From Planobacterium oryzisoli (GTDB lineage Bacteria > Bacteroidota > Bacteroidia > Flavobacteriales > Weeksellaceae): a stretch of DNA of 64,000 nucleotides. Of this stretch, positions 59,434-64,000 are shown in pieces. A program made the translations under genes and the position numbers. The notes beneath the pieces were generated by a model. The model saw only the letters and a list, made by a program, of their open reading frames with translations. It ran no database searches and had not been told where the DNA came from. Location of the stretch: contig NZ_JADKYY010000007.1 of the NCBI RefSeq assembly GCF_015354315.1, positions 62,001 through 126,000 on the forward strand, given 5' to 3'. Numbering within the stretch: position 1 is the first letter of the stretch; each line of letters begins with the position of its first letter.

Positions 59434-60579
59434 ATGAACGAATTCTATTACTATCTTCTTTATTTCACTTCAGAGTATTTTTCCCTGCCCCTCATTATTA
59501 GAATCACCCTGTTCTTGATAGTATTGCTGTTGCTTCTCTATCTGACGTTTTTCGGCCGGGTGGTATATATTTCACTCTTTCAGTTTTTGGAAAAAAAGAA
59601 AGCCCAGCGTCTCGAGCTAAAATACGCTTCTAAACTTCAATCGCTTCTTGAGCAGTCCAATCTGGAGTCCGACAAGATCCGGGCAGAAATGGGATGGACC
59701 CACAAAGTCCCGGCAAAAACGGATCTAGAACTACTGACGATGCTTCTGATTAGAACACGCAACGCTATTTCCGGATTTAATGTGCACAACTATTCCGTGA
59801 TTGTGGAGATTCTGCAATTACGAAAATACTGGAAGCGAATAGTTGAGAAAGAATCGATGTTTTCCAGCAGCAGGGCACTTAAGATTTTGGGCGATTTGGA
59901 ACTGGAAAGCAGTGAAACCCTCCAGGGACTTAACATTAAAACCAAAGACAAGGATCTGCAGAAATACGCCCGCAGTGTATTTTTTGATGTTTCTTCTTCT
60001 GATCTGTGGGAATCTTTTGACCGGGAACTTTCCTCTGATTTTACCTCCCTGGACGAGATCCGGCTGCACAGGGCTTTGCGCAGGAAAGCAGCCATGCGGC
60101 CCCTTCCTTCACTAATGCGCTGGGTGCAACGAAGCGACAATGAGGATTTTAAAGCTTTTCTGGTCAAAGAAATCTCCTTTTTCAAACAGAAAGAGTCGAT
60201 GCAGTCTCTTATGAAGCTCTTGAAGGAAACCACTTCCATTAAATTGAAAATTCAAATTATCACTACCCTGGGAGAACTGGGATGCAAGGAGGCAGTTCCC
60301 CTACTTAGCAGTGAATTCCATTACAATTCTGCCCGTACCCAGCAGGCCATTATTGCAGCCCTTGCGACCATTGGAGTAGAAAAATCCCTGAAATTTCTGG
60401 AGTTCGAATACAATCACTGCAAAAATCAGGATTTGCTCATAGATTTGGTACGAGGTATTTACACCATAGACGAAAAGCAAAAGACCGGTACCTACGAGCA
60501 GTTAAAAAGTACTTCAGCATCATTATTCACTTCCTCTATTTTTTCTTTTGTAGAGCGGGAAAATGTGGTTTTAAGTTAA
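59434..60579 (+). CDS. Membrane-anchored HEAT-repeat protein
   Basis: The 381-residue protein has a strongly hydrophobic N-terminal segment (about residues 16-50, PLIIRITLFLIVLLLLLYL and FFGRVVYISLFQFL), so it is anchored in the inner membrane with the rest presumably cytoplasmic. The remainder is almost all alpha-helical. The clearest HEAT units lie at about 255-340 (IKLKIQIITTLGELGCKEAV, QAIIAALATIGVEKSLKFLE). HEAT solenoids bind proteins, and there is no catalytic motif. The GTG-started glycosyltransferase gene begins 9 bases downstream and a TPR gene follows, so this protein is probably a scaffold or regulator of the glycosyltransferase complex. That role is inference. Confidence 0.8.
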   Translation: MNEFYYYLLYFTSEYFSLPLIIRITLFLIVLLLLLYLTFFGRVVYISLFQFLEKKKAQRLELKYASKLQSLLEQSNLESDKIRAEMGWTHKVPAKTDLELLTMLLIRTRNAISGFNVHNYSVIVEILQLRKYWKRIVEKESMFSSSRALKILGDLELESSETLQGLNIKTKDKDLQKYARSVFFDVSSSDLWESFDRELSSDFTSLDEIRLHRALRRKAAMRPLPSLMRWVQRSDNEDFKAFLVKEISFFKQKESMQSLMKLLKETTSIKLKIQIITTLGELGCKEAVPLLSSEFHYNSARTQQAIIAALATIGVEKSLKFLEFEYNHCKNQDLLIDLVRGIYTIDEKQKTGTYEQLKSTSASLFTSSIFSFVERENVVLS

Positions 60580-60588
60580 TAGTGCACT

Positions 60589-62013
60589 GTGGAAAACCTA
60601 TTCTTCGGTTACCAATACCTCATCTTCTTTTACTCTTTTGCTATTACGGTGGTGTATCTACTCCTGGCATTACTGGGCTACCTTAAAATTCAGAAGCTGC
60701 GCGCCCGCTATACCGCATACGAAGAAAAGCAGGTGCTTGGGGGCGACGATTTAGTGCCCGGAATTTCAATTGTTGCTCCTGCATTTAATGAGGAGGTAAT
60801 CATTATAGACAGTGTGAACTCGCTTCTCAATATGAATTATCCTCGTTTTGAGGTGGTTATTGTCAACGACGGTAGTAGAGACCAGACCTTGCCCTTGCTT
60901 ATTAGCACTTTTTCTTTGGTAAAGTCCGATTTTCCTTATGTAGAGAAAGTATACTGCCAGCCGGTACATACGGTATACAAGTCCACCGATCCGCAGTTTT
61001 TCCGGCTGATCGTAGTGGACAAAATAAACGGCGGAACAAAGGCCGATGCGATGAATGCCGGGGTTAATGTGGCCAAATACGATTACTTCATTAATACTGA
61101 CGTGGACTGTCTGCTGTCTAGCGATACACTCACCAAGTGCATCCTTCCCGTTCTGGATTCTCCTGTAACGGTCATTGCGGTGGGAGCCACAATGCGTATG
61201 GTAAACGGGTGCGACGTTAAAGACGGAGTTATTACAAGGGTGCGCCCGCCGCATCAGCTCATACCGCTTTTTCAGGAAACAGAATATCTTAGATCGTATC
61301 TGGTTGCGAAAATGGGATGGTCCACCATAAATGCCATTCCCAATGTCTCGGGCGGTTTCGGGCTTTTTAATAAGCTTGTGCTGATCAGTGCGGGGGGCTT
61401 TGATTCTTCTTCGCACGCGGAGGACATGGATATGACCCTGCGCATGGTGGCCTATATGCGCGAAAACAATAGGCCGTACCGAATTGCGCAGATTCCGGAC
61501 ACGTGCTGTTGGACCGAAGGACCTTCCAATCTGCAGGTACTAAAGCGGCAAAGAACGCGCTGGGGGAGAGGCCTTTTACAAATCTTCGTAGTACACAGGA
61601 AATTTTTATTTAACCCTAAGTACGGCCGCATGGGTCTGGTAGTAATGCCTTATGCGCTTATTTTTGAATTTCTGGCCCCAATGATTGAGGCAACGGGCTT
61701 TCTCTTTATGCTGTATTTGATTGCCACAGAGCAGATCAATTACCAAACGTTTTGGCTGATGCTTGTTTTTGTCTACCTGATTGGGGTGACCGTTTCGGTC
61801 ATCACCATATCGTTTGATTTAACCGTAAAAAGGCAGTACCAGAGTATCAGGGAGTATCTCAGACTCATTCTTGTGAGCTCCTTGGAAGCAATTGTATACC
61901 ATCCCTTTATTGTAGTGTACAGTATCATGGGGTACTACCAGTTTCTGACGCAGAAGAATTTTACCTGGGGCGCCATGACCCGGCAGGGCTTCCGCAGGAC
62001 CCAAACCGACTAA
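60589..62013 (+). CDS. Processive family 2 glycosyltransferase (polysaccharide synthase)
   Basis: The 474-residue protein begins with GTG at 60589; no upstream ATG is in frame and the next internal ATG (residue 82) would remove the membrane helix and the first catalytic motif. It has an N-terminal helix (about 8-33), then a GT2 domain: SIVAPAFNEE, D94 in IVNDGS, the D-x-D motif D171-V-D173, acceptor acid E278-D279 and Q321-R-T-R-W325. The D, DxD, D, QxxRW set marks processive synthases such as those for poly-GlcNAc, cellulose or hyaluronan. Three or four C-terminal helices (about 350-460) complete the inner-membrane architecture. The product sugar cannot be deduced. There is no PilZ domain, so direct c-di-GMP control is not evident. 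Confidence 0.9.
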   Translation: MENLFFGYQYLIFFYSFAITVVYLLLALLGYLKIQKLRARYTAYEEKQVLGGDDLVPGISIVAPAFNEEVIIIDSVNSLLNMNYPRFEVVIVNDGSRDQTLPLLISTFSLVKSDFPYVEKVYCQPVHTVYKSTDPQFFRLIVVDKINGGTKADAMNAGVNVAKYDYFINTDVDCLLSSDTLTKCILPVLDSPVTVIAVGATMRMVNGCDVKDGVITRVRPPHQLIPLFQETEYLRSYLVAKMGWSTINAIPNVSGGFGLFNKLVLISAGGFDSSSHAEDMDMTLRMVAYMRENNRPYRIAQIPDTCCWTEGPSNLQVLKRQRTRWGRGLLQIFVVHRKFLFNPKYGRMGLVVMPYALIFEFLAPMIEATGFLFMLYLIATEQINYQTFWLMLVFVYLIGVTVSVITISFDLTVKRQYQSIREYLRLILVSSLEAIVYHPFIVVYSIMGYYQFLTQKNFTWGAMTRQGFRRTQTD

Positions 62014-62046
62014 CTGCCTATTAATTTTATGTGATTTTTTAGTATC

Positions 62047-64000
62047 ATGATCCGATTTCGCTTTTTACTTTTTCTTTTTTCTCTATTTGCTTCCTCCCTG
62101 TTTGCACAGGGTGGTGGGCCTGCCACCACGCCCGACCCCGAGTTCAAGTCGGTAGTAGATGATTTTTCCAAAGGACGCTGGGAGTCGGCGCGCAGTAAGC
62201 TTGAGCGTCTTAGTACACAACGCCGTGACAACAGCGATCTGGAGTTTTTATGGGGTAAATACTACCACCAAAAGCAAGAGTACAGCAAAGCCCGATACCA
62301 CTTACAGAAGTCGCTGAAAAGAGCACCGAATGATTTGGAAGCAAAGCAGCTGTTGGTAAATGTAGAAACAGCCTCGCAGCGCTACTCGAGCGCCGTGTGC
62401 TACGTCAATGAACTTTTGGAAGTAAACCCGTACTGGAAGAGCTTGTGGCTCAAAAAGATAGAAATTTACGAAGCGCAGGGGAATCTCATCCAGGCCGAGC
62501 GGCTCCTAAAGCGTCTTTTCCAGATTTATCCGGAAGATGTAGAGATTCGGCAGAAATACGTGGACCGAGCGAAAGAAAAATCACTCGTATTAAGTAAAAC
62601 GCAAGATCATACTGGGGCGATTAAATTGAAGGAGGAGCTATTAAGTGCCGATCCCCGGGACGTGGGTACCGTGAACGGACTTTTTAATGATTATTTAAGA
62701 TCGGGACAGCTCGACAAAGCCGTGGCTTTAATGGATCAGGCGATGTATATGTTTCCGGCGCAGGAAGTATTTCTCTTGCGTAAGGTAAGTATCCTTTCCA
62801 CACAGCAGCGGTTCTCCGAAGTGCTCTATATTCTGGAACAGCGTCTAAAAACCAGGCCGTCTCCGGAAATTCGCAGGCAGTACAATTACTACATGCAGGA
62901 AGCGGCGCGGTATTCGCTTCAGCGCGAGCCGGAGCAGCTGTACGGAAAAATATTTCAAAGCAATCCTTCCAATGTGGAAGCCTTCCAGGTTGTCTATAAT
63001 GCGGCAGTAAGCGCCGCGCAGTACGATGAGGCACTTTCTCTTATCTCTCAGCACAGACGTTTTGCTTCCGGCTCTAAGAATTTGGATCTTAAAGAACTTC
63101 AGCTCTTTAAGCTAAAGGGTGACGAACTGAAGACTAAATCAAAGATTAGGGAACTCTACATAAAGTATCCTGGAGACACCGATATCGCATACGATTTTGC
63201 CCGAGTTACTCTAGCCGATGCGCGGCAGGCGATGGAAACGGAAAACTGGAGCGAAGCCATTGTACTTTGGGACCAGGTGCAGCGCTCAGGCGACAGAGAG
63301 ATGAAAGAAACGGCGAGCAACTCCCTGATTAGTGCATACAGTAATTATGGAAAGTACGAAGAAGCAGAACGGGAAATTAACTCGTCTCTCGAGCTTTATG
63401 GCGATAGTCCCTACCAACGTATCCGCTTGATGTCCCTGAATTTCAAAATGAAGCAGTACGAGCGGGGACTGGAGCAATGGGGCTATGTCCTGGAACAAAG
63501 CGATCCGGACCAACAAAATTTTTATCGGCAGGGACTGGGTGAATTAATGCAGCCTGTTCTGAAGGAACTCTCCGAAGCATATGATTTCGAGCAGGAAAGG
63601 TTACTGGCGGAAAAATGGCGCGCATTGGATTCCACAAGCGTCGAGGCCAATAAAGCAGTTGCTACCGCCTATATTAAAACCAATCGGAAGGATCTACTTA
63701 ACCCCTTTTTAGAAGAAGCGGTAGAGAAGTTTCCAAACGATCTGTTTTTTTCCGACAAACTGCTTACCACGGCTGAAAGCGATGAGAATAATACAGAAAT
63801 ATTGTACAGTCAGGCCGAGCAGAATCTTTCGCTGCAGCCCTATACACCGGCGCTTCAGAACACTTTCGTTGAGAAATCCGTAGATTTTTCCAAGCTGCTT
63901 CTCAAAGACAAGCAGTCCACGGCAGCGCTGGAAGTCCTTGACAAAGCGATGAAGGTGCAAAAGGAGAACTCGGATCTCATCACATTGAAGGGCGCCGCGT
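62047..64000 (+). CDS. Secreted tetratricopeptide-repeat protein (C-terminus beyond window)
   Basis: The frame from ATG 62047 stays open to the window end (at least 651 residues). It starts with a clear signal peptide (MIRFRFLLFLFSLFASSLFA, cut likely before QGGGPAT). The rest consists of helical pairs of TPR type, for example WGKYYHQKQEYSKARYHLQK, AEEREIN-like YGKYEEAEREINSSLELYG, and LDKAVALMDQAMYMFP. An exported TPR superhelix encoded after a processive glycosyltransferase recalls the periplasmic TPR parts of PgaA, BcsC or AlgK, which guide polymer to an outer-membrane barrel. A C-terminal beta-barrel may follow but is not visible here. It starts 33 bases after the glycosyltransferase stop, in one operon. 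Confidence 0.85.
   Translation, partial: MIRFRFLLFLFSLFASSLFAQGGGPATTPDPEFKSVVDDFSKGRWESARSKLERLSTQRRDNSDLEFLWGKYYHQKQEYSKARYHLQKSLKRAPNDLEAKQLLVNVETASQRYSSAVCYVNELLEVNPYWKSLWLKKIEIYEAQGNLIQAERLLKRLFQIYPEDVEIRQKYVDRAKEKSLVLSKTQDHTGAIKLKEELLSADPRDVGTVNGLFNDYLRSGQLDKAVALMDQAMYMFPAQEVFLLRKVSILSTQQRFSEVLYILEQRLKTRPSPEIRRQYNYYMQEAARYSLQREPEQLYGKIFQSNPSNVEAFQVVYNAAVSAAQYDEALSLISQHRRFASGSKNLDLKELQLFKLKGDELKTKSKIRELYIKYPGDTDIAYDFARVTLADARQAMETENWSEAIVLWDQVQRSGDREMKETASNSLISAYSNYGKYEEAEREINSSLELYGDSPYQRIRLMSLNFKMKQYERGLEQWGYVLEQSDPDQQNFYRQGLGELMQPVLKELSEAYDFEQERLLAEKWRALDSTSVEANKAVATAYIKTNRKDLLNPFLEEAVEKFPNDLFFSDKLLTTAESDENNTEILYSQAEQNLSLQPYTPALQNTFVEKSVDFSKLLLKDKQSTAALEVLDKAMKVQKENSDLITLKGAA

Follow-up and report, generated by a model that had tools for sequence, protein, structure and literature searches.

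A 64,000-nucleotide stretch of the Planobacterium oryzisoli genome (the window, G000:C18:62001-126000, part of a 147,451-base contig in a genome of 2.1 Mb) ends in three closely packed forward-strand genes for a HEAT-repeat protein, a glycosyltransferase of family 2 (GT2), and a tetratricopeptide repeat (TPR) protein, which raises the question of what such an operon makes and what a HEAT protein does beside a glycosyltransferase. We consider it likely that the operon encodes a system for synthase-dependent exopolysaccharide synthesis and secretion, in which the HEAT protein is an obligate partner of the synthase and probably controls it. An initial annotation of the window had suggested an exopolysaccharide secretion system, and this reading is supported by the presence of a predicted barrel and by a conserved gene order.

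The operon and its synthase

The first open reading frame (59434-60579) encodes a 381-residue protein (HEAT_2, E 1.6e-8) with a predicted N-terminal membrane helix and a predicted cytoplasmic solenoid, and the second (60589-62013, GTG start) encodes a processive-type synthase of 474 residues that matches GT2 families, including Glycos_transf_2 of Pfam. The third starts at 62047, is still open at 64000 with its first 651 codons in the window, and matches TPR_19/TPR_14. Positions and domain calls alike agree with the initial annotation, which put the TPR protein at no fewer than 651 residues; the gene continues past base 64000 to 924 residues, with Phe as the last, and ends at L003:7822 (window-equivalent 64821).

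The processive motif set ascribed to the GT2 (D94, D171xD173, E278D279, and QRTRW 321-325) was found exactly at these positions. The residues D94, D171, D173, E278, D279, and Q321-R-x-R-W325 are invariant across ten aligned relatives and, in a larger set, the D, DxD, (E)D, and QxxRW motifs are kept in 99-101 of 101 relatives, with the window copy intact. Hydrophobic segments lie at the N-terminus and at 348-444. Synthase-dependent exopolysaccharide systems are recognized by a membrane GT2 carrying these four motifs, and the window enzyme is of this form.

Conservation of the HEAT-GT2 pair

Loci with the five-gene order HEAT, GT2, TPR-barrel, DUF4838, and DUF1573 were designated class A. Three further genomes of the host's family have this order, and the named genomes that carry it include Chryseobacterium lacus, Mesonia hippocampi, two Brumimicrobium, several Sphingobacterium, and one Weeksellaceae strain. 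It is also present in a chitinophagacean and a prevotellacean metagenome-assembled genome (MAG), and in Myroides odoratimimus, where the contig begins just before the GT2, the last four genes are found. Identity to the window copy is 50-71% for most class A GT2s and 45% for that of the prevotellacean MAG. A search for the gene order across Flavobacteriia had been suggested, and the order holds well beyond that group. A TPR gene without a barrel or an unconserved gene order had been named beforehand as findings that would count against a secretion system; the barrel is present and the order is conserved, so neither refutes it.

The pairing of HEAT and GT2 extends outside class A. The best matches to a GT2 alignment gave a set of 80 named loci, in 77 of which the gene before the GT2 is visible; in 75 of these 77, the gene directly upstream is a HEAT gene on the same strand. 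Of 1002 other genes, 7 match the HEAT profile, which was trained on matches from these loci irrespective of position. Because of how the profile was trained and the loci were chosen, the pairing was checked in two further sets. A HEAT gene stands beside the GT2 in 15 of 20 loci drawn from the lower-similarity end of a sample across the phylum, and in none of 20 loci of a sister GT2 type. The HEAT-associated GT2s split from the sister type with strong support in a tree built with a quick method and having long outgroup branches. The sister GT2s (L141-L160), which numerous genomes of the same family carry, lie nearly all inside open reading frames of ∼1130-1160 residues. MAG loci labelled Limnohabitans (L053), Rhizobium (L079), and Gastranaerophilales (L047) were regarded as likely binning errors.

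At a threshold of E 1e-80 or better, the GT2 type is present in 65 of the 247 Bacteroidota genomes sampled, i.e., about a quarter carry this synthase type. HEAT-GT2 pairs were also found in 4 of 15 genomes of the Bacillota order of Aneurinibacillus (L164-L167), with no barrel gene seen beside these pairs; in Aneurinibacillus tyrosinisolvens the pair is followed by a receiver-domain protein. Bacillota have no outer membrane, so the pair exists independently of one, and these genomes suggest that HEAT-GT2 is a minimal unit open to study without an outer membrane.

The HEAT protein as partner of the synthase

The membrane helix of the HEAT protein spans residues 20-38, and a hydrophobic helix is found at the N-terminus of all 40 relatives analyzed. 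This supports the membrane HEAT protein of the initial annotation, in which the inner membrane is the probable location as judged from the sequence. Lys and Arg are richer after than before the helix in 39 of the 40 relatives (244 versus 45 in total) and, by the positive-inside rule, the solenoid is most likely in the cytoplasm, on the catalytic side of the synthase; the catalytic domain of GT2 synthases is cytoplasmic. The protein had been described as a membrane scaffold; with a domain that is most likely cytoplasmic, it is better read as a partner or regulator of the synthase than as a scaffold of the envelope. An AF2 model with a mean predicted local distance difference test (pLDDT) score of 89.8 contains a long helix (20-73) leading to a repeat solenoid. 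A fold search with this model matched only repeat proteins of a generic kind, including many designed alphaRep and armadillo proteins, and no match had E <0.001; because the matches are generic, the search is uninformative on function. Taken together, the invariant pairing and the topology suggest that the HEAT protein, held by a one-helix anchor with its solenoid beside the catalytic domain of the GT2, is an obligate partner and probably an on/off control of the synthase.

A less probable but credible alternative is that the secretion system is the same, that the HEAT protein is merely a static assembly or stability factor, and that all control is transcriptional. The invariant pairing and the membrane anchor would fit a structural partner equally well, and class A operons have AraC-type regulators and almost no receivers (1 of 15 loci has a CheY-like receiver no more than four genes away). 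However, such receivers, often accompanied by a hybrid kinase, are found at this distance in 63 of 75 loci of the other classes, and the HEAT sequence diverges far faster than the GT2, with an identity of only ∼22-33% in class A.

That divergence also weighs against our reading of the operon as a whole, as do several other observations. Five of the 20 low-similarity loci have no recognized HEAT gene adjoining the GT2, and no HEAT-GT2 fusion was seen among the loci searched, nor a fusion of either with a receiver (REC) domain. The window operon has no receiver, so that phosphorelay control is unsupported there. In addition, the DUF4838 protein of the window genome (L003:7809-9908, window-equivalent 64808-66907, forward strand, outside the window) has S245, D247, and S250 in place of three cysteines kept in 20 of 20 relatives. 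The other conserved residues are retained, and it is possible, judging by these substitutions, that its activity is changed or lost.

In the related operons that contain receivers, among them a second module of this genome, a phosphorylated CheY-like receiver probably acts on the HEAT protein or the GT2, whereas control of the window operon is probably transcriptional, with the AraC-type genes behind it as the visible candidates. The former is plausible because a single-domain receiver directly activates an exopolysaccharide enzyme in the EpsW/EpsZ pair of Myxococcus (PMC12802240). This pair is a model for direct post-translational polysaccharide control by a single-domain receiver; however, its target is a phosphoglycosyl transferase of a Wzx/Wzy pathway and no HEAT protein is involved (PMC12802240). 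A more general proposal, which we advance tentatively as somewhat short of an even chance, is that HEAT-GT2 is a control core independent of cyclic di-GMP (c-di-GMP), in which the HEAT protein would gate the GT2 in response to a phosphorelay or other protein signal, and that this core is used in Bacteroidota and some Bacillota with interchangeable barrels and decorating enzymes (DUF4838, sulfatase-type transferases). The variation in accessory genes can be seen across 79 loci, of which 61 have a TPR-YaiO or short YaiO barrel gene and 20 have DUF4838; in several loci the GT2 is fused to, or neighbored by, a sulfatase-domain (LTA-synthase-like) protein.

The TPR-barrel protein and polymer export

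A missing barrel had been anticipated beyond base 64000. A YaiO-type barrel is indeed there, but not as a separate gene: it forms the C-terminus of the TPR protein (PF19413, residues 692-861, 40.0 bits versus a cut-off of 23.9). The TIGR04390 (YaiO) model scores the window protein below its cut-off (17 bits versus 32) and gives 205 bits with the YaiO protein of a second module in the same genome. Our own YaiO profile had zero match to E. coli YaiO, and the link to that protein therefore rests on the Pfam family. A PgaA-type porin was rejected (TIGR03939, 28.3 bits versus a cut-off of 366.7). A model of the Chryseobacterium lacus ortholog (mean pLDDT 86.9) combines a TPR solenoid at the N-terminus with 14 beta strands, and the best structural matches to its barrel are TodX/FadL, OmpG, and CymA (Z 17-21, >200 residues), all of which are 14-stranded. 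As modeled, the gene product combines a periplasmic TPR domain and a predicted 14-strand outer-membrane barrel in one polypeptide. In the secretion system that we propose, the GT2 would build a polymer from a nucleotide sugar in the cytoplasm, passing it through the membrane helices of the enzyme itself; the chain would then cross the periplasm along the TPR solenoid and exit via the YaiO-type barrel of the same polypeptide.

The barrel bears on an unlikely alternative, namely that the GT2 attaches sugar to a lipid or a surface protein and that the TPR-barrel serves as a porin, a receptor, or an assembly factor. Known exopolysaccharide porins have 16-18 strands, and the smaller barrel predicted here, which resembles monomeric porins, would suit this alternative. 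However, QxxRW together with C-terminal hydrophobic segments is a processive-synthase signature, the GT2 and TPR-barrel genes are neighbors across distant families, and in E. coli, too, the YaiO gene is grouped with those for a GT2 and a putative deacetylase.

Exopolysaccharide systems commonly, though not universally, include a periplasmic polymer-modifying enzyme, and a deacetylase or lyase had been expected downstream. Neither was recognizable; the only candidate for such an enzyme is the DUF4838 protein (PF16126, E 1e-27), the C-terminal part of which resembles the beta-hexosaminidase chain 6q63 (profile E 1.8e-8). The start of its gene overlaps the TPR-barrel gene by 14 bases, and the same −14 gap is kept in 10 of 15 relatives. 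It is followed by a gene for a DUF1573 lipoprotein (L003:9895-10446, window-equivalent 66894-67445, forward strand, outside the window; PF07610, E 1.9e-14) with an invariant lipobox-like Cys20. In the secretion reading, the DUF4838 protein, which is hydrolase-like and probably a lipoprotein, and the DUF1573 lipoprotein would act on or hold the chain. It is very improbable that the locus serves glycan uptake, with DUF4838 degrading an external glycan, the barrel importing the fragments, and the GT2 a bystander: the hexosaminidase-like C-terminus and the likeness of the barrel to the cyclodextrin channel CymA would fit, but the genes behind the barrel gene contain no SusC/SusD-type domain, and HEAT-GT2 is the constant core whereas DUF4838 is optional.

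Relation to known systems and neighboring genes

Profile cut-offs and absent parts place the operon with the synthase-dependent systems but outside Pga, cellulose, and Nfr. The closest named family is that of the PNAG system (PgaABCD, E. coli): the PgaC/IcaA model scores highest on the GT2 among NCBIfam models, PgaC is 24% identical to the window enzyme and has the same motifs, and both systems have an outer-membrane protein with a periplasmic TPR domain. However, the score is far below the cut-off (TIGR03937, 112.5 bits versus 422.3), no PgaD-like or PgaB-like gene was seen in the window operon, which has the HEAT protein instead, and the barrel is predicted to have 14 strands versus the 16 of PgaA. 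Cellulose synthase (BcsA/CelA) was rejected as well (TIGR03030, 33.1 bits versus a cut-off of 699.1; no PilZ in the genome). In the E. coli yaiO-yaiX-yaiP-yaiS cluster, for which we know of no established function, a GT2 and carbohydrate-modifying enzymes likewise accompany a YaiO-type barrel, but there is no HEAT gene and YaiO is short (774-base coding sequence).

The NGR/Nfr system of E. coli (NfrB-NfrA-YbcH) also encodes a GT2 synthase together with a TPR outer-membrane protein (PMC8669469, PMC8669472). It differs in that all matches of the GT2 here to NfrB are short and non-significant (best E 0.063) and in that NfrB carries a c-di-GMP domain (PMC8669469), whereas the window operon has a separate HEAT protein, which would be the functional analogue of that domain. 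Control by c-di-GMP is common in synthase-dependent systems, though not defining, and a domain search in which the positive controls were detected found no GGDEF or PilZ domain in the genome. For such a genome, HEAT-GT2 is a concrete candidate for the control of polysaccharide output. No account of HEAT-GT2-YaiO gene sets was found in the open literature, a coverage outside which most subscription papers fall; what appears to be a complete machine is widespread in Bacteroidota and apparently undescribed, with the HEAT protein seemingly in the place of the c-di-GMP-sensing part.

The second HEAT-GT2 module of the genome (L005:6366-16273, G000:C2) consists of a hybrid kinase (1303 residues), a receiver (117 residues), a HEAT protein (348 residues), and a GT2-sulfatase (1123 residues). 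These genes overlap or nearly so, and the TPR-YaiO gene is convergent to them.

A weak hint of the substrate comes from galE, which lies ∼10 bases behind DUF1573 in Mesonia hippocampi (L042:16952-17974) and Myroides odoratimimus (L046:7263-8270) and could point to UDP-galactose (UDP-Gal) or UDP-N-acetylgalactosamine (UDP-GalNAc); in the window genome, galE is located away from the operon. A pattern search of the window gave zero matches to a Bacteroidota promoter-like pattern. Directly behind the operon, three AraC-type regulator genes (HTH_18) stand in a row on the forward strand outside the window (L003:10443-13593, window-equivalent 67442-70592), and the first of these regulators has several membrane segments.
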